This document shows positions 13,262 through 28,274 of a stretch of 36,286 nt of DNA, piece by piece. The position numbers and the translations under genes were made by a program. The notes beneath the pieces are model-generated. The model had not been told where the DNA came from. It made no database searches and saw nothing but the letters and a program-made list of their open reading frames with translations. This DNA is from Clostridiales bacterium (lineage in GTDB: Bacteria; Bacillota; Clostridia; Peptostreptococcales; Anaerovoracaceae): the NCBI GenBank assembly GCA_022773945.1, contig JALFNS010000034.1:1-36286 (forward strand), read 5' to 3'. Each line of letters starts with the position of its first letter. The stretch's first letter is position 1.

Positions 13262-16200
13262 ATGGATAAATACAGATTAAATATTAACGGCAAAGAAGTG
13301 ACAGGCCTTCCGGGTCAGACAATTCTCGAGGTTGCCAGAGAGAATGACATTTTCATTCCTACTCTGTGCTACGATGAGAGAACGAAGATATACGGATCAT
13401 GCGGAATATGCATGTGTGAGGTAGAGGGCAACCCTAAGCTCTGCAAGGCCTGCGCCACGGTTATCGCACCGGGAATGGTGGTAAACACCAATACCGAGAG
13501 AGTTATAGAGTCCAGAAAGACAAACCTGGAACTGCTCCTCTCCAACCATACGGGAGACTGCAGACCTCCGTGCGTGCTGGCATGTCCTGCACAGACAGAC
13601 TGCCAGGGTTATGTGGGACTCATAGCCAACGGAGAATATGAAGCTGCCAACGTGCTGATCAAGGACAAGATTCCTCTCCCTGCATCACTGGGAAGAGTAT
13701 GTCCTCATCCTTGTGAGACTGAATGCAGAAGAGGTCTCATAGACGAGCCGATTTCGATTCAGCAGCTGAAGAGATTCGCAGCAGATGAAGATCTCCTTCT
13801 CGGAGACGAAAGATTCCTGCCTGAGATCGATGAAGAGACAGGCAAGCGCGTTGCAATCATAGGCGGAGGCCCTATGGGACTGTCAGCCGCTTACTTCCTC
13901 AGACAGATGGGACATCAGGTTACCGTATTCGAGTCCATGCCTAAGGCAGGCGGAATGCTGAGATACGGAATTCCTGAATACAGACTGCCTAAGGCTGTTC
14001 TGGATGACGAGATACTTACCATCGAGATGATGGGAGTTGAAATCATCACTGACACCAAGATCGGAACGGATATTCCTTTCGAGACGGTAAGAGATGATTT
14101 CGATGCCGTACTGCTGGGTATAGGTGCATGGATTTCCACAGGCGTGGGATGTCCGGGCGAAGATGCCGAAGGAGTAATCGGAGGAATCGACTTCCTGAGA
14201 AAGGTTGTCAGAAACGAAGAGATTCAGCTGGGCAAGAAGGTTGCCATCGTCGGCGGAGGAAACACTGCCATGGACGCCTGCAGAACAGCTGTCAGACTGG
14301 GAGCCGAGGAAGTTTACAACATATACAGAAGAACCAAGGACGAAATGCCTGCCGACATGATTGAAATCGAAGAGGCAGAGGAGGAAGGCGTAATCTTCAA
14401 GAACCTGACAAATCCTCTGGAAATCATCAAGGACGAGAACGGTCATGTGAAGGAAGTGGTGCTCCAGTGCATGGAACTGGGAGAAGCTGACGAGTCCGGC
14501 AGAAGACGTCCTGTACCTATCGAAGGCAAGACCGAGACCATTGAGCTGGATACAGTGGTACTGGCAATAGGTCAGGCTGTAGACGCATCAATATTCGACT
14601 GTGACAAGACGAGAAAGGGTGCTATCGCATACGATAAGGAAACCTTCATGACATCAATTCCGGGCGTATTCGCAGGTGGAGACTGCGGTAACGACAAGAT
14701 CAGCATAGCTGTTGAAGCTATAGCAGACGCCAGGAAGGCCAGCGAGGTTATCGACGCATACCTCTGCGGAGAGACTATCAGATACAAGAAGCCTTACTTC
14801 GTAACGAGAGACGACATTACGGAGAAGACCTTCGAAGACAGAGAAAGACAGTGCAGACCGGAGCTTCCGCAGCTGTCGGCTGAGGAGAGAAAGGACAACT
14901 TCAGCGAGGTTATCCCTCAGGCATATTCTGCAGAAGATGCTGAGGCTGAAGCTTCCAGATGTCTCGAGTGCGGATGTCACGATTACTTCGAGTGCAAGCT
15001 CATCGATCTGGCACACAGATACGATGTTGATCCTGACAGATTTGCCGGTGACAAAAACGCTATAGATTTCGAGGACAATCATCCGTTTATCGTAAGAGAC
15101 CCTAACAAGTGCATACTCTGCGGACTTTGCGTGAGAGTCTGCGACGAGGTTATGGGAATCGGCGCACTCGGTCTGGTTAACAGAGGATTCGACACTGTTG
15201 TCAAGCCGAATCTGGAGAAGCCGCTGGCTGAGTCCGGATGCGTATCCTGCGGTCAGTGCGTAAGCGTATGTCCTGTAGGAGCTCTCCAGGAGAGAACGAC
15301 TATGGTCAAGGAAGTTCCGCTGCCGACAGTTGAGACGGAAACGACATGCTCATACTGCTCAGTGGGCTGCAGCATTATACTCGAAAGCTACGGAGACATG
15401 CTCATCAAGGCAAACCCTGACAGAGAAGGCGCTGTTAACAGAGGACTCCTCTGCGGCAAGGGCAAGTGGGGATTTGACTGCTCCATGCTGGAGGACAAGC
15501 TTGATACACCGCTCATCAGAGACGGCGGCTCTTTCAGAGAGGCGGATTATCACGAGGCTCTGACTCTGATTGCCAAGAAGATGCAGTCGGTGGCAGCCAA
15601 GTACTCCCACGATGAAATCGGAGTATCGATTTCCGACAGATATACCAACGAAGAGGCCTATGCTATCAAGACCATGGCCGAGGCTATGGGAGCCAAGGTG
15701 TTCTCCATGAACAATAGGAAGAGCGGACTCAAGGCCGTTATTGGACACGACGCTTCACCTAACACAATAGATGAGCTTCTCAGCACAAACCTGATTCTCG
15801 CAGTTGGTTTCAACACAGTTGACAACCCGATTATCAGTCTGAAGATGAAGGAAGCCGCAGAGGCCGGTGCACAGACGATTCTCGTAAATCCGTCGGATTA
15901 TCCGCAGCACATTAACGGACTCAGCAAGGCTGTATACAGAGACGACCTGGGATTCCTGAAGGAAATCGCAAAGGCCGTTCTGGACAGCGGCAAGGCCGTT
16001 AAGGCAGAGGGCTACGATGAATTCGCAGCGTCCCTAGCTGACGTGAAGGTAAGCGAGGAAGCCGCAGAAATCGCACAGGCATACATGAATGCCAAGAAGG
16101 CTATGATCGTGTTCAACCAGAACCTGGTAAGCACTGAGACGGCTGCTCTCATCGCAGACCTGGCACTTATCAGCGGACACATTGGTTCACCTCGTGACGG

Positions 16201-16768
16201 AATTCTCCAGGTTAAGGCCAAGAACAACTCACAGGGACTCGTTGATATGGGAATCACAGAAGGAGCCGAGGAGCTCGAAGGACTCAAGGCACTCTTCGTA
16301 TTCGGTGAAGAGTTCGAAATCGACAGAGACAGCCTGGAATTCCTGGCAGTATGCGATACTCACATGACTCCGCTCGCAGCCAAGGCTGATGTGGTTATTC
16401 CGGGAACGGGATTCGCATCCACAGACGGAACATACACCAACACTGAGAGAAGACTCCAGCTTGTTGAAGCAGCAATAGACGAGGATGTTGAGCTGAGCAA
16501 CTGGGAAGTTGCCGCTGAAATAGCAGCCATATTCGAGGTTGAACTGCCTTGGGAGGACACTGTTGATATCAGCAGAGAGATGGATGACTGTGTTCCGGCA
16601 TACAAGTACGGCGAAGTGGGAGAAATTCTGGGAGGAGTTCTCGTTCCTGTAGAGCCTAAGCTTGCAGTTGTCGAAGGCGATAAATTCGCTGATCCGATCA
16701 AGTGCACGGACAGTCTTATGAATGTTATTGCAGAGCGTCTGCCTAAGATGGTAAGTCCGACTAAATAA
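13262..16768 (+). CDS. Fused GltD-like/NuoG-like iron-sulfur flavoprotein subunit
   Basis: This 1168-residue fusion reads, in order: a [2Fe-2S] plant-type ferredoxin (C36, C47, C50, C64); the NuoG-type cysteine region (about 95-115); a GltD/NfnB-like FAD and NAD(P)H module, with VAIIGGGPMGLSAA near 197 and VAIVGGGNTAMDA near 326 followed by YRRTKDEMPA, typical of NADPH-linked members; a two-cluster ferredoxin (CILCGLC near 617, CVSCGQC near 660); and a truncated molybdopterin-oxidoreductase-like domain starting with CSYCSVGC near 695. That last domain has no Cys or selenocysteine at the expected metal-ligand position and lacks the C-terminal cofactor-binding domain, so it resembles complex I NuoG rather than formate dehydrogenase. 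The set resembles the Sporomusa-type Nfn (Stn) bifurcating transhydrogenase; that comparison is from memory. Confidence 0.85.
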   Translation: MDKYRLNINGKEVTGLPGQTILEVARENDIFIPTLCYDERTKIYGSCGICMCEVEGNPKLCKACATVIAPGMVVNTNTERVIESRKTNLELLLSNHTGDCRPPCVLACPAQTDCQGYVGLIANGEYEAANVLIKDKIPLPASLGRVCPHPCETECRRGLIDEPISIQQLKRFAADEDLLLGDERFLPEIDEETGKRVAIIGGGPMGLSAAYFLRQMGHQVTVFESMPKAGGMLRYGIPEYRLPKAVLDDEILTIEMMGVEIITDTKIGTDIPFETVRDDFDAVLLGIGAWISTGVGCPGEDAEGVIGGIDFLRKVVRNEEIQLGKKVAIVGGGNTAMDACRTAVRLGAEEVYNIYRRTKDEMPADMIEIEEAEEEGVIFKNLTNPLEIIKDENGHVKEVVLQCMELGEADESGRRRPVPIEGKTETIELDTVVLAIGQAVDASIFDCDKTRKGAIAYDKETFMTSIPGVFAGGDCGNDKISIAVEAIADARKASEVIDAYLCGETIRYKKPYFVTRDDITEKTFEDRERQCRPELPQLSAEERKDNFSEVIPQAYSAEDAEAEASRCLECGCHDYFECKLIDLAHRYDVDPDRFAGDKNAIDFEDNHPFIVRDPNKCILCGLCVRVCDEVMGIGALGLVNRGFDTVVKPNLEKPLAESGCVSCGQCVSVCPVGALQERTTMVKEVPLPTVETETTCSYCSVGCSIILESYGDMLIKANPDREGAVNRGLLCGKGKWGFDCSMLEDKLDTPLIRDGGSFREADYHEALTLIAKKMQSVAAKYSHDEIGVSISDRYTNEEAYAIKTMAEAMGAKVFSMNNRKSGLKAVIGHDASPNTIDELLSTNLILAVGFNTVDNPIISLKMKEAAEAGAQTILVNPSDYPQHINGLSKAVYRDDLGFLKEIAKAVLDSGKAVKAEGYDEFAASLADVKVSEEAAEIAQAYMNAKKAMIVFNQNLVSTETAALIADLALISGHIGSPRDGILQVKAKNNSQGLVDMGITEGAEELEGLKALFVFGEEFEIDRDSLEFLAVCDTHMTPLAAKADVVIPGTGFASTDGTYTNTERRLQLVEAAIDEDVELSNWEVAAEIAAIFEVELPWEDTVDISREMDDCVPAYKYGEVGEILGGVLVPVEPKLAVVEGDKFADPIKCTDSLMNVIAERLPKMVSPTK

Positions 16769-16785
16769 GACAAGTATTAGTAATG

Positions 16786-16822
16786 AGAGTGTGCCGGGAT
16801 TGAACCACGGCACACTCTTTTT
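16786..16822 (+). terminator. Rho-independent terminator after the redox operon
   Basis: AGAGTGTGCCG (16786-16796) pairs perfectly with CGGCACACTCT (16808-16818) and is followed by T residues. The next promoter's extended -10 begins 2 bases after the T run. Confidence 0.92.
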
Positions 16823-16823
16823 G

Positions 16824-16832
16824 TGATATAAT
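16824..16832 (+). promoter_or_regulatory. Extended -10 promoter of the LuxEC operon, apparently leaderless
   Basis: TGATATAAT combines a TGn element with a perfect TATAAT (16827-16832). Counting the last T as -7 puts +1 exactly at A16839, the first base of the MaoC-like gene's ATG. No ribosome site precedes that ATG; the upstream bases are terminator and promoter. Confidence 0.6.
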
Positions 16833-16838
16833 GAACAC

Positions 16839-17309
16839 ATGAAGGAAGATAAATTCGAGAAAAAAACAGTACATGTCGGAGACAGGGCTTCTCTGACAAA
16901 AAAATTCACGGAAGATGATATCCGGATTTTCACCGAGCTCACTCTGGATGACAACGGTATGCATACAGATGAGGAGCTTTCGGCTGCGGGACTGTTCAGG
17001 AGACCCGTGGTTCACGGAGTGCTTGTAGGAAGCCTGATATCCTCCGTAATGGGCAAATACCTGCCGGGAAACGGAACCGTTCTCCGGGAGGAGAATATCA
17101 GATTTATTAATCCGGTGTATCCGGGAGAGGAGATTACAGCGGCAGTGGAGCTGACCGGTATCCGTGAGGAACGGAGGTACTATATCGGAACCCTTCACGG
17201 CACATGCCACAATCAGGACGGTGTTCTGGTGGCGGAGGCTGAATGCAGCCAGCTCATGTTAAAGAGATTTTTTACAGCAGATTGTGAGAAAGGAAATGAA
17301 AATGACTAA
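16839..17309 (+). CDS. MaoC-like (R)-specific hydratase
   Basis: This 156-residue hot-dog-fold hydratase of the MaoC/PhaJ type adds or removes water at 2-enoyl/3-hydroxyacyl thioesters. The catalytic motif is present as D37-x4-H42 within LDDNGMHTD, followed by FRRPVVHGVLVGSL (about 53-66), the usual second active-site stretch. The length is right for a single-domain enzyme. It is the first gene of the LuxEC operon, its start coincides with the predicted transcript start, and it overlaps the acyl carrier protein gene by 8 bases. The substrate is therefore probably a carrier-protein-bound acyl chain rather than an acyl-CoA; that is inference. Confidence 0.82.
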   Translation: MKEDKFEKKTVHVGDRASLTKKFTEDDIRIFTELTLDDNGMHTDEELSAAGLFRRPVVHGVLVGSLISSVMGKYLPGNGTVLREENIRFINPVYPGEEITAAVELTGIREERRYYIGTLHGTCHNQDGVLVAEAECSQLMLKRFFTADCEKGNEND

Positions 17310-17538
17310 TCTTGAAAAGTATGATGACGCGTTTCTGTCGAACTTCAAAGTATCAAAGGATGATCTCCCTGAGCTTGAATATCAGGGCATATTCGAGTGG
17401 GATTCAGTAGGACACATGGATCTCATAGCGGATCTGGAGTCAGCCTTCGGAGTTCACTTCAACACCAAGGACGTTCTCAGACTGTCTTCATACGAGAAGG
17501 GCAAAGGCATACTCAAGGAATACGGAGTAGAAATCTAA
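17302..17538 (+). CDS. Acyl carrier protein
   Basis: This 78-residue acidic protein has the phosphopantetheine-attachment motif WDSVGHMDLI, with Ser35 as the expected modified residue. ATG 17302 is chosen for its AGGA ribosome site 7 bases upstream and a start (MTNLEKYDDAFLSNF) that fits carrier-protein helix I; in-frame starts at 17284 and 17296 add only a few residues. It differs from a housekeeping AcpP in having WDSVGHM in place of the common DSLDTVE, which is typical of dedicated pathway carrier proteins. It probably carries the acyl group between ligase, hydratase and reductase of this operon. No phosphopantetheinyl transferase gene is in the window. Confidence 0.85.
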   Translation: MTNLEKYDDAFLSNFKVSKDDLPELEYQGIFEWDSVGHMDLIADLESAFGVHFNTKDVLRLSSYEKGKGILKEYGVEI

Positions 17539-17540
17539 CT

Positions 17541-18188
17541 GTGATAACAAAAGTTACATCAGAAAAAATAGACGGTAACAGCTACATAATCCGCGAGGGC
17601 GGTTATGCGCTGGTGATAGATCCGGCGGACGGAGACAAAGTAACGAAGGAAATTGAGCGCCTGGGGGTTACACCTGAATATATAATCCTCACCCACGAGC
17701 ATTTCGATCACATAGGAGGGCTCGAGCAGGTGAGAGAGACCTGCGGGATTCCTGTTATAGCGAGCCGTGAGTGCAGTGACAATATACAGACTGTCAAGGG
17801 AAACCTGTCCAGCATATCCGGTATTCTCGAGTACTTCAAGACCGGTAAAATCCCGGATAAGACCATAGATCCCTTCGTGTGCGGTCCCGCGGATATCACC
17901 TTCGAGGAGAATTACTCCATGGAGTGGCGGGGACACAGTTTAAGCTTCAGAAGACTTCCCGGACATTCCCGGGGAAGCGTGCTGATTTATCTGGATGAGG
18001 GAATAATCTTCACTGGAGATTATCTTATAGCAGACAGGGAAGTCATAACACGTCTCAAGGGCGGAAGCCAGGAGGACTATGACAATATAGCACTGCCTGT
18101 GCTCGAGTCCATTCCTGAAGGCACGCACATATATCCGGGCCATGATGAGGATTATATTATGGGGAGGCAGGATAATGGACAGAGATGA
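17541..18188 (+). CDS. Metallo-beta-lactamase-fold hydrolase
   Basis: This 215-residue protein probably starts at GTG 17541, two bases after the carrier-protein stop; the preceding GGAG is somewhat distant. The metal-binding motif HEHFDH is at 52-57, with further ligands in LPGHSRGSV, FTGDYL and YPGHDEDY, so a two-metal glyoxalase II-like site is complete. Glyoxalase II-like members hydrolyse thioesters. Between a carrier protein and an acyl reductase, an editing or releasing thioesterase is a reasonable inference. Its last codons overlap the LuxEC start by 14 bases. Confidence 0.82.
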   Translation: MITKVTSEKIDGNSYIIREGGYALVIDPADGDKVTKEIERLGVTPEYIILTHEHFDHIGGLEQVRETCGIPVIASRECSDNIQTVKGNLSSISGILEYFKTGKIPDKTIDPFVCGPADITFEENYSMEWRGHSLSFRRLPGHSRGSVLIYLDEGIIFTGDYLIADREVITRLKGGSQEDYDNIALPVLESIPEGTHIYPGHDEDYIMGRQDNGQR

Positions 18189-20400
18189 ATTTCTGGATAG
18201 AAAGCCCTTTTCGGTTCCGCAGAAGGAGAAGGATGATTTCTACAGAGAAGAGCTTGCCCGCATGTCGCGCAGGCACAGAGAGGGCTGCCCGGAATACGAC
18301 AGAATATGCAGGGGGCTGGGAGAGGACAGTCCCTATATTCCCGTTACTCTTTTTAAGGATCTGGAGCTGAGAAGCGTGCCCGAGGATAAGATAATACGCA
18401 GAATAACATCTTCGGGAACCTCGGGACAGAAGGTCTCAAGGATACTTCTGGATGCGGAGACTTCAATGGCCCAGCAGAGCGCCCTGTGCATGATTACAGG
18501 CGACTTCATCGGGGAAAACCGCATACCTATGCTCATTATCGATTCTCCCGATGTGCTCAGGGACAGGAAGAAGTATTCCGCCAGGGGCGCGGGCATAATG
18601 GGCTTCGCCATGATGGCGTCGAAGCGTTTCTACGCACTGGATGAGAACATGAATCCGGACATGGAGGCCATAGAGGCATTCATGGAGGAGGCGGGTGACG
18701 GACCATCCTTCGCCTTCGGTTTCACATATATGATATGGGAGTACTTCTGCAGACCGTTTCTCGGTAAGACTGCAGGAGTCAGCCTTAAAAACTGCACGCT
18801 CATTCACGGAGGCGGATGGAAGAAGCTTGAGAATATCAGCGTGTCCGACGCCGATTTCAAAGAAGGCCTCAGGAAGGCCTGGGGGATAGAGAGAGTAAGT
18901 GATTATTACGGCATGGCGGAGCAGACGGGCAGCGTTTTCATGGAATGCCCGGAAGGCCGGCTCCATGCCAGCATATATTCCGATGTGAGGATACTCAATC
19001 CGGAGGACTTCTCGGAATGCGGCCCCGGAGAGTGGGGGCTGATAGGCCTGAAGTCACTTCTTCCTCAGTCGTACCCGGGACACATTCTCCTGACAGAGGA
19101 CAGAGGAATGCTTCTAGGCACCGATGACTGCCCATGCGGACGCAAAGGCAGATATTTCCGCATCGGCGGCAGGATAAAGAAGGCAGAGGTCAGAGGGTGC
19201 AGTGACACCTTCGATAAGGGTGAGACGGCACCGGAAGGTGAGTTCGTAACGGTTGCGGGAGAATATCCTCCTGAATCTGCAGGAGAGGACAGCTTTTCTC
19301 AGCAGGTTATGGATTTTCTCTCTGAGCTTTCGCGTATGCTGATGCGAGAGCCGGAATACAGGCGGTATCCGGAGGTGTACGCCTTCGGATTCTGGTGCAG
19401 ACCGGGACATATTGAAGAAATAAGAGGAAGATACGGTAATGACAGGAAGGGAAAGGGAACGGTCCTTCACATAGCGCCTTCCAACATGCCTGTTATGTTC
19501 GCCTATTCATGGGTGACGTCTCTCATGGCCGGAAACAGCAATGTGGTACGTATATCCGGCAGGAGCACGGAAGTGACCGATGTGCTGCTCAGAGGCATAG
19601 GGAGTCTTATGGAGCGTGAGGAGTTCGCGGACATCAGAAGAAGGAACGCCTTCGTGAAATTCCCCAGAGGTCACAGGGCACTAGAGGAGATTTCCCTCAA
19701 GGCTTCGGGACGCATTATATGGGGCGGTGACGATACAGTCAGAGAGATATCTGCCGTTCCTGCAGGGGACGGGTGTGTGGACATAGGATTCCCCGACAAG
19801 TACTCAATAGCACTTATGGATCCTGATTACATAGCAGGACTTGACGACGTGGAGCTGAAACAGCTCGCACACCTCTTCTATAACGACACATACGGGGCGG
19901 ACCAGAATGCATGCTCCAGTCCGAGAAGCATTTTCTGGCTGAAGGGCAGAGAATGTAACGGAGAAGAGATCAGAGAGAAGTGGTGGAATGCTCTGGCTGC
20001 GGAGGCTGAGAACTATGACCTCAGGCCGTGGGTAGCCACTGAAAAGTACAGAGTTCTCTGCAGAAACTACGCTTCCCGTGAAGATCTGGGAAGCGTGAAG
20101 AGATGGGGCAACAGACTCTATGTGGTCCCATGGGAGAAGGATGATGCGACAGAAGATATGCCGGAAGGTAAATTCGGCATATTCTATGAGAGAGAAATAG
20201 ATAATGTTGAGGAGATGTATCCTTATCTCAATGAGAGAATACAGACACTTGTGTGCTGCGGCCCCGAAGAAAAAGAAATCCTGTCAGGAATAAGAAGTGC
20301 AGGATGTGCCGGGGTTGACCGTGCGGTAAGTGTCGGTGAGGCTCTCGATTTTGATACGGTATGGGACAGGAAGGATATAATCGGACTTTTGTCGGAGTGA
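18175..20400 (+). CDS. LuxE-LuxC fusion: acyl-protein synthetase + acyl reductase
   Basis: This 741-residue protein starts at ATG 18175 behind GGGGAGG. Residues about 1-350 are a LuxE/PaaK-type adenylating domain: SSGTSGQK near 79-86, DYYGMAEQTGSVFMEC near 243, and CPCGRKGRYFRIGGRIKKAE near 318. A poorly conserved linker leads to a LuxC-type reductase (about 375-741): VLHIAPSNMPVMFAYSW, GNSNVVRISG, and the catalytic cysteine C580 in DQNACSSPR. In luminous bacteria LuxC and LuxE are separate subunits that turn activated fatty acid into aldehyde with NADPH. Here both sit on one chain in E-to-C order and there is no luciferase. The operon supplies a carrier protein and a second ligase, so the acyl donor may be carrier-bound. 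The chain-length preference is unknown. Confidence 0.85.
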   Translation: MDRDEFLDRKPFSVPQKEKDDFYREELARMSRRHREGCPEYDRICRGLGEDSPYIPVTLFKDLELRSVPEDKIIRRITSSGTSGQKVSRILLDAETSMAQQSALCMITGDFIGENRIPMLIIDSPDVLRDRKKYSARGAGIMGFAMMASKRFYALDENMNPDMEAIEAFMEEAGDGPSFAFGFTYMIWEYFCRPFLGKTAGVSLKNCTLIHGGGWKKLENISVSDADFKEGLRKAWGIERVSDYYGMAEQTGSVFMECPEGRLHASIYSDVRILNPEDFSECGPGEWGLIGLKSLLPQSYPGHILLTEDRGMLLGTDDCPCGRKGRYFRIGGRIKKAEVRGCSDTFDKGETAPEGEFVTVAGEYPPESAGEDSFSQQVMDFLSELSRMLMREPEYRRYPEVYAFGFWCRPGHIEEIRGRYGNDRKGKGTVLHIAPSNMPVMFAYSWVTSLMAGNSNVVRISGRSTEVTDVLLRGIGSLMEREEFADIRRRNAFVKFPRGHRALEEISLKASGRIIWGGDDTVREISAVPAGDGCVDIGFPDKYSIALMDPDYIAGLDDVELKQLAHLFYNDTYGADQNACSSPRSIFWLKGRECNGEEIREKWWNALAAEAENYDLRPWVATEKYRVLCRNYASREDLGSVKRWGNRLYVVPWEKDDATEDMPEGKFGIFYEREIDNVEEMYPYLNERIQTLVCCGPEEKEILSGIRSAGCAGVDRAVSVGEALDFDTVWDRKDIIGLLSE

Positions 20401-20404
20401 GAAT

Positions 20405-21736
20405 ATGTATTTTTTTGACAAGAAGGAAGAATTCAGAAACAGAATAATGTGCTTCGACGGTGAAGAAAATTCCTACACCTATGAAGATATATGGAACAGG
20501 GGAGACTCACTGACGGAGCATATTCCCGAGGGAAGCCTGGTGCTTCTTCTCTGCGGCAATGATGTCAACAGTCTGAGCACCTATCTGGCACTGTTGAGAA
20601 AGAGATGCCCGGTAATACTTCTGGGCAGGGATGTGGACGAGTCTCTCGTGTCTGATATGAGGGACACCTACAGGCCGGAATTTATTATTGGGGACGGTTA
20701 CTCCCGTGACAGAATTAACGGGAAGGAGCCTTTGCATGATGAACTGGCTCTGCTCCTGTCAACTTCAGGCAGCACGGGTGCGCGCAAGCTGGTAAGGCTG
20801 AGCCGCGACAATCTGCAGGTCAACTGCGATTCAATAGTGGAATATCTGGGAATTGACGGGAATGAGAGGCCGATAACAACACTCCCTATGGAATATACCT
20901 ACGGACTGTCTGTAATCCACAGCCATATAGCGGCAGGTGCATCCATAGTGCTCACGGATCTGACATTTTTCTCAGGGGAATTCTGGGAGCTCGTGGAGAA
21001 GCTCAAGGTGACGTCTATGGCCGGAGTTCCATACTCCTACGAGATCCTCTTCAGAAGGCTGGAGATGGACAAGATGGAGCTGCCTTACCTGAAGACAATG
21101 ACTCAGGCAGGGGGACACCTCAAGCCGGATCTTCAGGAGAGAGTGGGCAAATGGGCACTTGAGACGGGCAGAAGGTTCTTCGTCATGTACGGACAGACGG
21201 AGGCTACGGCACGCATGAGCTATCTGCCGCCTGACAAATGCCTGGAGAAGATAGGAAGCATAGGAATACCCGTTCCCGGCGGGAGGATAGAGATACAGGA
21301 CGGCGAGCTCGTTTACTACGGCAGAAACGTATCTCTGGGATATGCCACCTCACGAGAGGATCTGCAGCTGGGCGATGTTAATGAGGGCCGTCTGATGACG
21401 GGAGACATGGCCTTTGCGGATGAAGACGGATACTACTATATAAGCGGCAGGAAGAAGAGGTTTATCAAGCTTCAGGGCCGAAGAATAGGACTGGACAGGC
21501 TGCAGGAATATCTGCAGGAGATTCTTGATTCGGAGGATGTTGTCTGCACGGGAACCGATGACAGAGGTGTTATAATATGGATTGCTGACGACAGCCTTAT
21601 GGAGCGAAAGGATGAAATCGAGGAGCTCTTCGCCGGGAAATTCGGCATTCGAAGCAGGTTCCTGCATTTTAACCTGATAGATGAAATTCCGAGAAACTCT
21701 TCGGGAAAGACGGTATATGCCAAACTAGGAAGTTAA
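20405..21736 (+). CDS. AMP-forming acyl ligase (ANL superfamily)
   Basis: This 443-residue adenylating enzyme shows the core motifs STSGSTGARKLVRL (A3, about 119-132), MYGQTEATARM (A5, about 261-271), TGDMAFADEDGYYYISGRKK (A7/A8, about 331-350), and the C-terminal catalytic lysine in NSSGKT (A10, about 435). It is some 60-100 residues shorter than a standard fatty-acyl ligase, mostly in the N-terminal part. It starts 5 bases after the LuxEC stop behind GGAGTGAG. Its probable job is to activate a free acid and load it onto the operon's carrier protein; CoA as acceptor is the alternative. Confidence 0.85.
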   Translation: MYFFDKKEEFRNRIMCFDGEENSYTYEDIWNRGDSLTEHIPEGSLVLLLCGNDVNSLSTYLALLRKRCPVILLGRDVDESLVSDMRDTYRPEFIIGDGYSRDRINGKEPLHDELALLLSTSGSTGARKLVRLSRDNLQVNCDSIVEYLGIDGNERPITTLPMEYTYGLSVIHSHIAAGASIVLTDLTFFSGEFWELVEKLKVTSMAGVPYSYEILFRRLEMDKMELPYLKTMTQAGGHLKPDLQERVGKWALETGRRFFVMYGQTEATARMSYLPPDKCLEKIGSIGIPVPGGRIEIQDGELVYYGRNVSLGYATSREDLQLGDVNEGRLMTGDMAFADEDGYYYISGRKKRFIKLQGRRIGLDRLQEYLQEILDSEDVVCTGTDDRGVIIWIADDSLMERKDEIEELFAGKFGIRSRFLHFNLIDEIPRNSSGKTVYAKLGS

Positions 21737-21748
21737 GGAGATTATAAT

Positions 21749-22897
21749 ATGCAGTACAGGAAATTCAGAAGAATGGACAGAGAGAATTCTCTTCTCGGCA
21801 TGGGAGTTATGAGACTTCCTCAGGACGAAGAGGGCAGAGTTGACAGCGAAGAGGGTGTGAGACTCATACGCTACGCCATTGACAAAGGCATCAACTACAT
21901 CGATACCGGATTCACCTATCACGGAGGCAGGAGCGAGCGAATAATCGGAGAAGCACTCAAGGACGGATACAGAGACAAGGTTATTCTGGCTGACAAGATG
22001 CCTATATGGCTGGTGAAGTCAGAGGAGGATGTGGACAGATATTTCAACAAGCAGCTGAAGAGGCTGGATGTTGACTGTATCGACATGTACCTTGTTCACA
22101 ACATAATCCCCGCCAACTGGAAGAAGACGAAGAAATACAACGTGCTTCCTTATCTGGAGAAGCAGAAAGCGGAGGGACGCATCGGTCACATCGGATTCTC
22201 ATTCCACGGAGATCTGGATTTGTTCAAAGAGGTTATAGATGCATACGACTGGGAATTCTGTCAGATACAGCTGAATTATCTTGACAAGGACGAGCAGGCG
22301 ACTCTGGAGGGACTTGAATACGCACGGAGCAAAGGCATAGACGTTATAGTCATGGAGCCTCTCAAGGGCGGCCGTATAACGGACAAGGTTCCCGATTCCG
22401 TTCAGAAAATCTGGGACGACGCTGTGGCAGCGGGAACGGTATCCGGTGACAGGACGCCGGCCGAGTGGGCCTTCAGATGGGTCGCATCGCAGCCTGGAGT
22501 TTCGCTCATACTCAGCGGCATGAATTCCACGAGTCAGCTGGATGAGAATATCGCGATCTTCTCACGCGACGACCTGACAGAGATGAGCGAGGAGGAGCTG
22601 GCGGTTATCGACAGAGTTGCCGAGGAATACAACAGCAAAATCAAATATCAGTGCACCGGCTGCGGTTACTGCATGCCTTGCCCGAAGAAGCTGGATATTC
22701 CGGGAGTAATAAGATACCTGAATAACTGGTATGCCTTCGACAAGAACCCGAGCACCAGAATGGAGTATGACACGTGGCTGGGAGACGGCTTCCACGGTTC
22801 CGATTGCATTCAGTGCGGCGAGTGTGAGAAAAAATGTCCGCAGAGTCTGCCGATTCCTGCTATAATGAGAGAAGCGGCAGAAGAGTTTGGCAAATAA
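21749..22897 (+). CDS. Aldo/keto reductase with C-terminal iron-sulfur domain
   Basis: This 382-residue protein has the complete aldo/keto reductase tetrad D52, Y57, K83, H117 in an N-terminal barrel (about 1-290). A C-terminal ferredoxin-like tail follows, with two cysteine motifs, CTGCGYCMPCP (from about 302) and CIQCGECEKKCP (from about 351). Such proteins are frequent in anaerobes and reduce aldehydes or ketones with NAD(P)H or reduced ferredoxin. AAGGAG precedes the ATG, 12 bases after the ligase gene. As last gene of the LuxEC operon, it could reduce the aldehyde to an alcohol; that is inference. Confidence 0.85.
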   Translation: MQYRKFRRMDRENSLLGMGVMRLPQDEEGRVDSEEGVRLIRYAIDKGINYIDTGFTYHGGRSERIIGEALKDGYRDKVILADKMPIWLVKSEEDVDRYFNKQLKRLDVDCIDMYLVHNIIPANWKKTKKYNVLPYLEKQKAEGRIGHIGFSFHGDLDLFKEVIDAYDWEFCQIQLNYLDKDEQATLEGLEYARSKGIDVIVMEPLKGGRITDKVPDSVQKIWDDAVAAGTVSGDRTPAEWAFRWVASQPGVSLILSGMNSTSQLDENIAIFSRDDLTEMSEEELAVIDRVAEEYNSKIKYQCTGCGYCMPCPKKLDIPGVIRYLNNWYAFDKNPSTRMEYDTWLGDGFHGSDCIQCGECEKKCPQSLPIPAIMREAAEEFGK

Positions 22898-22942: not shown

Positions 22943-23719
22943 ATGTACGAAACTGTTAAATACGAAGTGAGAGACGGTATTGCATATGTGACGGTCAACA
23001 GACCTGAGGCTCTTAATGCGCTGAATTCACAGGTTATCGGAGAGCTGCGCCAGGTTTTTGAAAACATCGCCGTTAATGATGATGCTAAAGTTGTCATCCT
23101 CACAGGCGAAGGCAGATCCTTCGTGGCGGGAGCTGACATCGCAGAGATGTCCAAGCTGAACGCGGTTGAGGCCAGAAACTTCGCCGCAGACGGACACGCT
23201 CTCATGAATTATATAGATAATATCGAGAAGCCGGTAATCGCGGCTGTTAACGGATTCGCTCTCGGCGGCGGATGTGAGCTGTCCATGGCATGCGACATCA
23301 GAATCGCATCATCCAAGGCCAAGTTCGGTCAGCCTGAGGTAGGCCTGGGACTCATCCCGGGATTCGGCGGTACTCAGAGACTTGCCAGACTGGTAGGCAA
23401 AGGCATGGCCAAGATGCTGATCTATTCGGCTGACACTATCGATGCGGAATACGCGTGTGAGATAGGCCTTGTGGAGAAGGTTGTGGCTCCCGAGAATCTC
23501 ATGAGCGAATGCGAGGCTCTGGCAGGAAGAATAATGGCCAAGGCCCCTATCGCTGTGGCTGTTTCCAAGCACTGCATCAACAACGGTTACGATATGGACA
23601 TGAAGTCCGCATCACAGTTTGAAATCAACTCCTTCGGAGTTCTCTTCGATTCAGAGGACATGAAGGAAGGAACAGCAGCGTTCCTCGAGAAGAGAAAGGC
23701 AGAGTTTAAGAACAAATAG
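22943..23719 (+). CDS. crt: Enoyl-CoA hydratase/3-hydroxybutyryl-CoA dehydratase
   Basis: This 258-residue crotonase has the oxyanion-hole stretches GRSFVAGADIAEMS (about 56-69) and NGFALGGGCELSMACD (about 101-116), and the second catalytic glutamate in PEVGLGLIPGFGGTQRL (about 130-146). It interconverts 3-hydroxyacyl-CoA and 2-enoyl-CoA, typically in butyrate formation. ATG 22943 is preferred because GAAAGGA lies about 10 bases upstream; the ATG at 22925 overlaps that site. The partner genes of a butyrate pathway are absent here, so this copy may serve another CoA pathway or the neighbouring acyl operon. A strong terminator follows. Confidence 0.88.
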   Translation: MYETVKYEVRDGIAYVTVNRPEALNALNSQVIGELRQVFENIAVNDDAKVVILTGEGRSFVAGADIAEMSKLNAVEARNFAADGHALMNYIDNIEKPVIAAVNGFALGGGCELSMACDIRIASSKAKFGQPEVGLGLIPGFGGTQRLARLVGKGMAKMLIYSADTIDAEYACEIGLVEKVVAPENLMSECEALAGRIMAKAPIAVAVSKHCINNGYDMDMKSASQFEINSFGVLFDSEDMKEGTAAFLEKRKAEFKNK

Positions 23720-27578: not shown

Positions 27579-28274
27579 ATGTTACTTAAACGTGAAGACA
27601 GTTTTACAGTATCCGAGGGAGACCTGACACCGGCAGGCACGCTGCCGGCAGGGAGAATACTCCATGAATTTCAGGATATAGCAGGCGATCATGCCGAAGC
27701 ACTTGGAGAAGGCATGGATAAGCTTCGCAGCGAAGGGAAGGCCTGGATACTGTCCAAGGTCAGATTCGAAGTGCTGGGAAGCTTCTCGGCAGGTGAAACA
27801 TACAGGATAGAAACTTATCCCAGAGAGAAGAAGGGCGTCACCTTTTACAGAGATTACTACATATACGATGGCGACGATAACATGCTGGCCCGCGGCACAA
27901 GCCACTGGTGCATCATGAACTTCGATACCAGGCGCATACTCAGGCATGCACCGGATTTCGTAGGAGAATACATAGATCACAAAGCCTTCGAAGACGATAT
28001 TCCTAAGATCAGATCCGAGGAAGGCGAGCCTGCGGGAAGCCATCTTGTTACCCGTGAAGACATAGACAGAAACAATCACACCAACAACTGCCGCTACGGT
28101 GACATGGTCGAAACAGTCCTTAATCACCGGGCCTACAGCGAGATGATAATCAACTTCTCCCGTGAAACTGTAGAGGGAGATACCATTGAATTCTTCACCG
28201 GCGAGTCGCATGGATACACTCACGTTGAAGGCCGCAGGGGAGAAGAGGTTGTGTTTAAGGCGATGGTGCGGTAA
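27579..28274 (+). CDS. Acyl-[acyl-carrier-protein] thioesterase, FatA/FatB type
   Basis: This 231-residue double hot-dog thioesterase releases free fatty acids from acyl-ACP. The first hot-dog has ILHEFQDIAGDHAEALG (about 28-44) and WILSKVRFEVL; the second has the catalytic Asn/His region REDIDRNNHTNNCRYGD (about 158-174). It lies 21 bases after the exporter permease behind AAAGGAAGG and is probably in the same transcript. Its products could feed the ligase and LuxE domain of the operon about 5 kb upstream, or be exported; both ideas are inference. Confidence 0.85.
   Translation: MLLKREDSFTVSEGDLTPAGTLPAGRILHEFQDIAGDHAEALGEGMDKLRSEGKAWILSKVRFEVLGSFSAGETYRIETYPREKKGVTFYRDYYIYDGDDNMLARGTSHWCIMNFDTRRILRHAPDFVGEYIDHKAFEDDIPKIRSEEGEPAGSHLVTREDIDRNNHTNNCRYGDMVETVLNHRAYSEMIINFSRETVEGDTIEFFTGESHGYTHVEGRRGEEVVFKAMVR

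Follow-up and report, generated by a model that had tools for sequence, protein, structure and literature searches.

What does an operon built around LuxE and LuxC do when no luciferase accompanies it? The question is raised by contig JALFNS010000034.1 (assembly GCA_022773945.1) of a Clostridiales bacterium from the family Anaerovoracaceae, of which positions 1 to 36,286 were analysed; this whole stretch is called the window. Positions 16839-22897 of the window hold six genes, all head to tail on the + strand, which encode a MaoC-type hydratase/dehydratase, an acyl carrier protein (ACP), a metallo-beta-lactamase fold (MBL) hydrolase, a LuxE-LuxC fusion (LuxEC), an AMP-forming ligase and an iron-sulfur aldo/keto reductase (AKR). 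The operon is a real, conserved variant of a module already in print. It may be read as an ACP-dependent carboxylate-to-aldehyde pathway, in which an acid would be loaded onto the ACP, hydrated or dehydrated there, released by hydrolysis and reduced by LuxE and LuxC to an aldehyde; this order of steps is given a probability of about one half.

The six genes are tightly packed. The MaoC and ACP genes share an 8 nt overlap, the ACP and MBL genes are 2 nt apart, the MBL and LuxE genes overlap by 14 nt, and the spacings from LuxC to ligase and from ligase to AKR are 4 and 12 nt, while 45 nt separate the AKR gene from a downstream crotonase gene. This gene content, with its coordinates and strand, agrees with an initial annotation made from the letters alone, the families being assigned by Pfam and the ACP by structure. 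The same annotation had noted that the operon lacks a ketosynthase, and none occurs among the family matches of the six genes. It had also noted the lack of a luciferase; the luciferase family PF00296 was matched in 0 of 12 genomes checked, compared with 10 of 14 control genomes.

The operon lies beyond chance because its gene order is kept in 12 loci. The order MaoC-ACP-MBL-LuxE-LuxC-ligase was found in 12 of the 52 LuxE rows of a neighbour survey, namely in nine loci of the window's genus, in L042 (a Roseburia-labelled metagenome-assembled genome) and in L141 and L142, whose genomes are placed to the same phylum only and which keep the order with LuxE and LuxC as separate genes. Thus, the condition named in the initial annotation as damaging to its proposal, that these genes are rarely adjacent in relatives, turned out to be the opposite of what is seen. 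LuxEC matches occur in 3 of 148 genomes of the family and 16 of 393 of the order, and LuxE profile matches in 25 of 391 genomes of the class and 6 of 398 of the phylum, the own genome being included each time and the four samples overlapping and differing in threshold. A scan of genome contigs with a single protein query returned 2 loci. A search of plasmids gave 34 records, 12 with at least 80% query coverage.

A tree of LuxE, built from 51 rows after L025 (genome G373, on a 3.3-kb contig) had been excluded from the tree and the groups, has its deepest fork between 35 and 16 rows. An ACP and a ligase were found in 31 of the 35 and in 0 of the 16. The rows were also sorted into standalone, glycan and pair groups, an assignment made by the authors partly from gene content and uncertain for L140, L035, L129 and L143. 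In this sorting the module group comprises 34 rows, the long-branch L144, which has no ACP or ligase match, being grouped with the 16. An ACP and a ligase lie within 6 kb and on the same strand as LuxE in 31 of these 34 module rows versus 0 of the 17 others, as counted with HMMs for ACP, MBL, MaoC, LuxE and LuxC that were iterated on the same open reading frames (ORFs), which favours weak members. The strong co-occurrence of ACP, LuxE, LuxC and ligase, an operon with its own carrier protein, is thereby borne out. The three module rows missed are the second pair of L128, L160 and L127. The first two are second LuxE-LuxC copies in clusters whose first copy has an ACP and a ligase beside it, and in L127 the ACP is farther than 6 kb from LuxE. 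The survey splits LuxE-LuxC pairs with their own ACP and ligase from pairs without them. The second LuxE group (L038-L040, L139, L148-L159 and L144; 17 rows) has LuxC but no ACP or ligase match within 6 kb.

Within the window's genus the picture is similar. Among 24 genomes listed in the order search, 11 match LuxEC (own genome included), and nine of the 11 show the full MaoC-ACP-MBL-LuxEC-ligase order; G373 has an unfused LuxE/LuxC pair on its 3.3-kb contig, and in G402 the operon is split across contig ends, with one fragment, L037, lacking LuxE. An operon-type ACP (at least 80 bits) occurs in 10 of the 11 LuxE/LuxC carriers versus 1 of the 13 genus-mates without LuxE, the exception being G343; the 13 may be one too many, as G415 was counted as LuxE-free and has contig breaks (L115, L118) at the operon's expected place.

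The reductase is the strongest part of the proposal. LuxEC is a single 741-residue protein with a LuxE domain at 18175..19266 (+ strand; PF04443, 1.6e-40) and a LuxC domain at 19267..20400 (+ strand; PF05893, 2.5e-27). The border between them was placed by hand, since the Pfam LuxE match stops near residue 348 and that of LuxC begins near residue 425. The LuxE half aligns to chain E of the Photobacterium LuxC-LuxE structure 7xc6 (3.2e-11), its C-terminal Cys included, and the top PDB match of the LuxEC model is chain A of the same complex (7xc6_A, 3.6e-15). The LuxE C-terminal Cys was found in 32 of 33 rows, the remaining one being truncated by a contig end, and the LuxC Cys in 32 of 32. The fused form itself occurs in 13 rows and needs two changes on the tree, and a single origin, tried as one clade, was rejected (AU p 0.008). 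LuxE and LuxC were thus fused twice independently, and therefore the halves act together. The cluster of L126/L160 (G484) and that of L128 (G558) each hold a fused and a split LuxE-LuxC set, with LuxE halves in different clades. Rows with both MaoC and MBL did not form a single LuxE clade in the tree, and such a clade is not rejected by the test (AU p 0.105). In LuxEC, the LuxE half would activate an acid with ATP, hold the acyl group on Cys342 and pass it to Cys580 of the LuxC half, where NAD(P)H would reduce it. The conserved residues and the homology to LuxC-LuxE make aldehyde formation by LuxEC likely.

The second gene (17302..17538, + strand) encodes a dedicated carrier of 78 amino acids, identified by model, fold match and alignment. 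It has no Pfam match at E 1e-3, and PF00550 reaches 13 bits against a cut-off of 20.8. The AlphaFold model has a pLDDT of 97.4; in it, Ser35 (residue 36 of the modelled 79) begins a long helix, and the matches listed by Foldseek against the PDB are ACPs, alone or in complexes, with a best TM of about 0.8, a best E of 0.016 and none at or below 0.001. The motif W-D-S-x-x-H around this Ser is present in 32 of 32 aligned module ACPs. Despite the missing Pfam match, the modelled helical ACP fold, with Ser at the start of helix II, identifies the gene product as an ACP. The Ser35 numbering used earlier is correct when translation begins at the ATG at 17302. The genome otherwise holds two clear ACPs, a third barely above the cut-off, and an AcpS-family phosphopantetheinyl transferase gene, whose product could add phosphopantetheine to Ser35.

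Loading of this carrier may be assigned to the AMP-forming acyl ligase (20405..21736, + strand; PF00501 AMP-binding, 2.2e-32), which would activate a supplied acid and transfer it to the ACP. Its P-loop and C-terminal Lys435 are conserved in 31 or 32 of 32 rows, and it weakly resembles the 2-oxoglutaryl-ACP ligase AmcH (82 bits, cut-off 370). The operon thus appears to contain two acid-activating enzymes, the ligase and the LuxE half, and this doubling would be explained by a change made to the ACP-bound acyl group between both steps.

The first gene offers such a change. It encodes a 156-residue MaoC-type (R)-specific enoyl-thioester hydratase/3-hydroxyacyl-thioester dehydratase (16839..17309, + strand; PF01575 MaoC_dehydratas, 1.3e-18), whose nearest solved structures are PhaJ 1iq6 (1.6e-23) and 3ir3 (6.9e-20). 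The catalytic Asp-x4-His is present, D37 and H42 aligning with 1iq6, and D37 is kept in 14 of 15 module MaoCs and H42 in 15 of 15. The Gly and Pro that flank the usual PhaJ/MaoC motif differ in the window's protein. With its PhaJ-like active site, MaoC would interconvert 3-hydroxyacyl-ACP and trans-2-enoyl-ACP.

The third gene (17541..18188, + strand; GTG start) encodes a glyoxalase-II-like MBL-fold hydrolase (PF00753 Lactamase_B, 1.3e-21), proposed to be an acyl-ACP thioesterase. Its matches include hydroxyacylglutathione hydrolases, and the HxHxDH metal ligands are kept in 14 of 14 module MBLs. LuxD frees the fatty acid from acyl-ACP in luminous bacteria, and no LuxD-family match was obtained among the operon proteins, the rest of the genome not having been searched. 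The MBL protein would fit this role by cleaving the modified acyl group from the ACP and handing a free acid to LuxE for a second activation. This LuxD-like reading is adopted mainly because of two stand-ins. In L133, an ACP-MBL-LuxE-LuxC-ligase locus with no MaoC match, a FabZ-type 3-hydroxyacyl-ACP dehydratase lies about 2 kb 5' of the ACP (111.7 bits, cut-off 113), and in L127, a glycan-type locus with a fused LuxEC and no MBL match, a PF00975 thioesterase gene separates the ligase gene from that of LuxEC. Additionally, a gene annotated fabZ is found near a Rhizobium plasmid cluster. The stand-ins suggest that dehydration on the ACP and hydrolysis are the functions that are wanted. Of the two roles first offered for the MBL protein, editing or release, release is therefore preferred, and editing is left to an explanation in which the ACP, or else acyl-CoA, donates the acyl group directly to LuxE-LuxC with no free acid formed, and the MBL protein clears misloaded ACP.

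Such direct thioester reduction is the simpler reading, and acyl-CoA reductase is indeed the Pfam name of LuxC; MBL-fold proteins are often general thioester hydrolases, and in some glycan-labelled rows no MBL match accompanies the ACP, ligase, LuxE and LuxC. It is nevertheless considered unlikely, as the adenylation loop and acyl-carrying Cys of LuxE, unneeded for pure transfer, are kept in the complete aligned rows, and the thioesterase between ligase and LuxEC in L127 comes from another family than MBL.

Several further observations weigh against the sequence of loading, hydration or dehydration, release and reduction favoured here. Ten glycan-labelled rows carry the ACP-ligase-LuxE-LuxC set and neither a MaoC nor an MBL match, and therefore the module does not include these two steps in general. 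The FabZ and PF00975 stand-ins are known from one locus each, and the FabZ gene of L133 is separated from the ACP by DUF1097 and CoA-transferase genes. In the MaoC of L141 the catalytic Asp is replaced by Asn, and in the carrier G402 the ACP lies directly 3' of the fdh gene with no MaoC between. The LuxEC model (mean pLDDT 81.5) falls below 50 at residues 334-354, around Cys342. In G343 the ACP, ligase and MBL genes stand together without a LuxE/LuxC match (L165, L166), near polysaccharide-type WcbI genes and, in L166, also near GNAT and glycerophosphotransferase-like genes; there the loading part seems to serve different acceptors. Finally, no report of enzyme activity was recognised in the literature passages on such modules.

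Which acid is reduced can be approached through gene neighbourhoods. The module of L132 is followed by genes for thiolase, crotonase, hydroxybutyryl-CoA dehydrogenase and a LarA-type protein, and that of L135 by genes for thiolase, acyl-CoA dehydrogenase and Etf subunits; a malic enzyme gene adjoins LuxE in L035, and a lactate/malate dehydrogenase gene adjoins the ACP in L036. Two published cases are counted here as well: the XanR regulon unites acp-caiC-luxEC with abfD, and RfbN is proposed to serve a C4 acid. These hints point to C4 metabolism, and a small C4 acid, either a hydroxy or a 2-enoic acid, is tentatively favoured at somewhat less than even odds. The window's own neighbours add nothing to this, which also weakens the case: crotonase and LarA-type genes were considered as C4 evidence in its genus and rejected, as they occur near fdh without LuxE (crotonase in L107, L113 and L117, LarA-type in L107). 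For the same reason the crotonase-type enoyl-CoA hydratase gene at 22943..23719 (+ strand; PF00378, 1e-69) is not counted in the module, because it also lies near fdh in genus-mates without LuxE.

A long-chain fatty aldehyde, made as in luminous bacteria and destined for ether lipids or products of the wax type, would agree with the homology to the LuxC-LuxE fatty acid reductase and with the downstream acyl-ACP thioesterase gene at 27579-28274 of the window. This gene belongs to a neighbourhood that is kept without LuxE in L113, and PhaJ, to which MaoC is nearest, is a short-chain enzyme; a long-chain product is accordingly held to be improbable. The most novel form of the pathway is a "lux without light": a 3-hydroxy or 2-enoic acid would gain or lose water on a private ACP, the MBL hydrolase would release it, and LuxEC would reduce it to a hydroxyaldehyde or enal. 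This is a speculative proposal and held to be rather less likely than not. If it were true, the hydroxyaldehyde or enal would be a signal, a cross-linker or a diol precursor, and a conserved, undescribed product of Bacillota.

The last gene of the operon encodes an AKR with a C-terminal 4Fe-4S domain (21749..22897, + strand; PF00248, 4.2e-45; Fer4_9, 3.8e-9), for which the initial annotation had proposed reduction of the aldehyde to an alcohol. The gene is present as described, and its product may carry out this step in the window's genus; it remains the weakest step, and the AKR is an accessory, genus-specific at this position. It follows the module in 8 of the 12 rows of shared gene order, all in the window's genus, and in 0 of the 3 outside. 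Relatives were found in 13 of 13 genus-mates without LuxE, with best matches of 40-71% identity (about 40-43% in G302 and G366); the 71% copy, that of G415, lies at a contig end within the operon's usual surroundings. At E 1e-60, the carriers, of which nine were compared, have the operon AKR plus at most one further match near 40%; G383 has only the latter. Overall, this distribution rules out the AKR as a core enzyme. In L032 (6404-7396; G407), an IS110-family transposase gene is inserted between the ligase and the AKR. The interpretation from which this study started is thus partly supported, its operon and the co-occurrence of its genes standing and the core role of the AKR falling away.

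The AKR also bears on a fermentative or detoxifying role, in which a short acid (butyrate, crotonate, 3- or 4-hydroxybutyrate) would be converted to aldehyde and alcohol, either to take up surplus electrons or to relieve the cell of acid. In the passages of PMC6615313 (2019) on this system, acp-caiC-luxEC of Clostridium is listed with abfD-nifU-hyp-ach-golB under XanR and the heading "Butyrate/Butanol synthesis". Of the 12 standalone rows that do not belong to the genus, 8 (L134-L138, L042, L141, L142) have an activator of the PAS-sigma54 type at most 6 kb from LuxE, and L134 and L138 have high-scoring -24/-12 sites 39-40 bp 5' of acp, whose scores 0 and 1 of 200 shuffles attained. In L141, L142 and L042 the sites lie some 350 bp away from the ORF starts chosen, the high-scoring one of L042 being accompanied by a divergent activator; L135 and L137 have marginal sites, and none was found in L136. 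Within the window's genus, L033 shows a high-scoring site at 393 bp upstream, and an activator ORF lies no farther than 6 kb away. Sigma54 control of the window operon, by comparison, is without support, as its best upstream site was equalled in 25% of 200 shuffles, and no XanR-type or sigma54 activator ORF occurs within 6 kb of its LuxE. Together with the poor conservation of the AKR, and with a dedicated ACP and two ATP-using activations that fit low-flux biosynthesis better, this makes a fermentative role doubtful for the window.

Another explanation is surface decoration, in which the aldehyde would enter a glycan or lipid either as such or after conversion to an acid or alcohol. The glycan-type label was given to 13 of the 34 module rows, 10 of which have a glycosyltransferase, LicD, Wzy or transketolase match at the locus; glycosyltransferases also lie near the plasmid relatives of Deinococcus and Rhizobium, and published proposals for RfbN and for flagellin islands point the same way (PMC4875605, PMC7874193, PMC4772473, as far as their passages on these genes go). 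Against it, no glycosyltransferase or sugar gene was recognised among the window's annotated neighbours and there is no short-chain dehydrogenase/reductase (SDR) partner, the window's LuxE clade is separate from the glycan rows, and the glycan labels of L035, L129 and L143 are thinly supported. For the window, surface decoration is judged quite unlikely. A split transketolase pair was found in 6 of the 13 glycan-labelled module rows (L006, L034, L127, L130, L131 and L160) and also in the Rhizobium locus L161, with SDRs and sometimes LicD. In glycan-labelled loci a transketolase possibly uses the LuxC aldehyde as acceptor to form an unusual polyol or ketose.

Some features near the modules stand on their own. 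A Cys-rich domain, with the motif GIKYCGGCNPRYDR followed by GC...C, forms an N-terminal part of about 90 residues of MaoC in four loci (L042:5888-6667, L141:10833-11537, L142:10301-11038, L132:10068-10826) and is fused to FabZ in one (L133:12699-13451). In three Clostridium-type loci it is a free-standing ORF of about 90 residues, about 6 kb or less from the module (L134:2600-2872, L136:5589-5861, L138:15057-15329). The N-terminus of L141 gave no Pfam match and that of L142 no PDB match; very weak matches to SelT/W/H were the only ones, and by eye the domain looks SelW/thioredoxin-like. It has no match among the window ORFs.

In the window, the operon is preceded by a gene for a 1168-aa protein (13262-16768), in which a GltD-like flavoprotein is joined to a NuoG/formate-dehydrogenase-like part. 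The genes before it, where family search found a 2Fe-2S thioredoxin-like match, are presumably hndA/hndC-like. At 16805..16841 (+ strand), a candidate terminator arm 3' of the fdh gene is followed by an extended -10 element, both placed by eye; its TATAAT (16827-16832) ends 6 nt 5' of the MaoC ATG, and L026 (7075-7150) is arranged alike. The TATAAT was not among the calls of a consensus promoter scanner. Its position after a terminator-like hairpin, in the window and in L026, suggests a leaderless mRNA.

How the operon relates to known systems can now be considered. Homologues of the light-organ fatty acid reductase occur in many non-glowing bacteria and have been published, in the passages located, as "liposugar", "butanol" or O-antigen genes. 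The acp-caiC-luxEC genes of Clostridium resemble the window in having ACP, AMP ligase, LuxE and LuxC adjacent on one strand, and their kin L134 and L138 also have MaoC, located 3' of LuxC; the window differs from them by the addition of MaoC and MBL, the fused LuxE-LuxC, another gene order and the lack of a sigma54 signal. The flagellin-glycosylation islands (PMC4875605 and PMC7874193, whose passages on them guess at a liposugar) share the ACP-ligase-LuxE-LuxC core. Their fifth partner is an SDR (FabG) in a glycan context, whereas the window has MaoC and MBL and neither an SDR partner nor glycan genes. On plasmids, Deinococcus has the set ACP-SDR-ligase-LuxE-LuxC, while those of Ponticoccus and Rhizobium carry similar sets.

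The LuxE-domain protein RfbN has been proposed, in the passage of PMC4772473 that concerns it, to serve an O-antigen acid, 3-deoxy-tetronic acid; the same passage describes a luxE deletion in Riemerella that affected virulence and gene expression, with no enzyme activity tested. As described there, RfbN is a LuxE-type protein serving a small-acid product and not light, as is proposed for the window. Tetronic acid is a C4 compound. Besides RfbN, its cluster is said to encode an ACP and a ligase together with an alcohol dehydrogenase, which would be comparable to the window's AKR, and is not known to include MaoC or MBL. The two are likened by description and not by sequence, the context of RfbN is O-antigen, and the window adds a dehydratase and a hydrolase. 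With these partners, the RfbN cluster would be the nearest to a described route for the module.

Carboxylic acid reductase (CAR) has the domain order A-PCP-R and joins adenylation, a carrier protein and reduction to the aldehyde. The window operon works alike in these three respects, but CAR is a single polypeptide with an SDR-type R domain, whereas the window has separate proteins and, as reductase, LuxC (PF05893, of the aldehyde dehydrogenase fold). From luxCDABE the window retains the LuxE adenylation loop and Cys and the LuxC Cys and fold; unlike luxCDABE it has no luciferase, and it has its own ACP and ligase and fused halves. The pathway had been called a candidate undescribed one; this does not hold for the bare ACP-ligase-LuxE-LuxC module, which is already in print, and it may hold for the form with MaoC and MBL, of which no description was recognised in the openly licensed PMC literature. 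What is new is this conserved dehydratase-plus-hydrolase form, together with two independent LuxE-LuxC fusions and the single-locus FabZ and PF00975 stand-ins. The six-part form keeps the same order across distant Bacillota, and each of its parts can be given a testable job.

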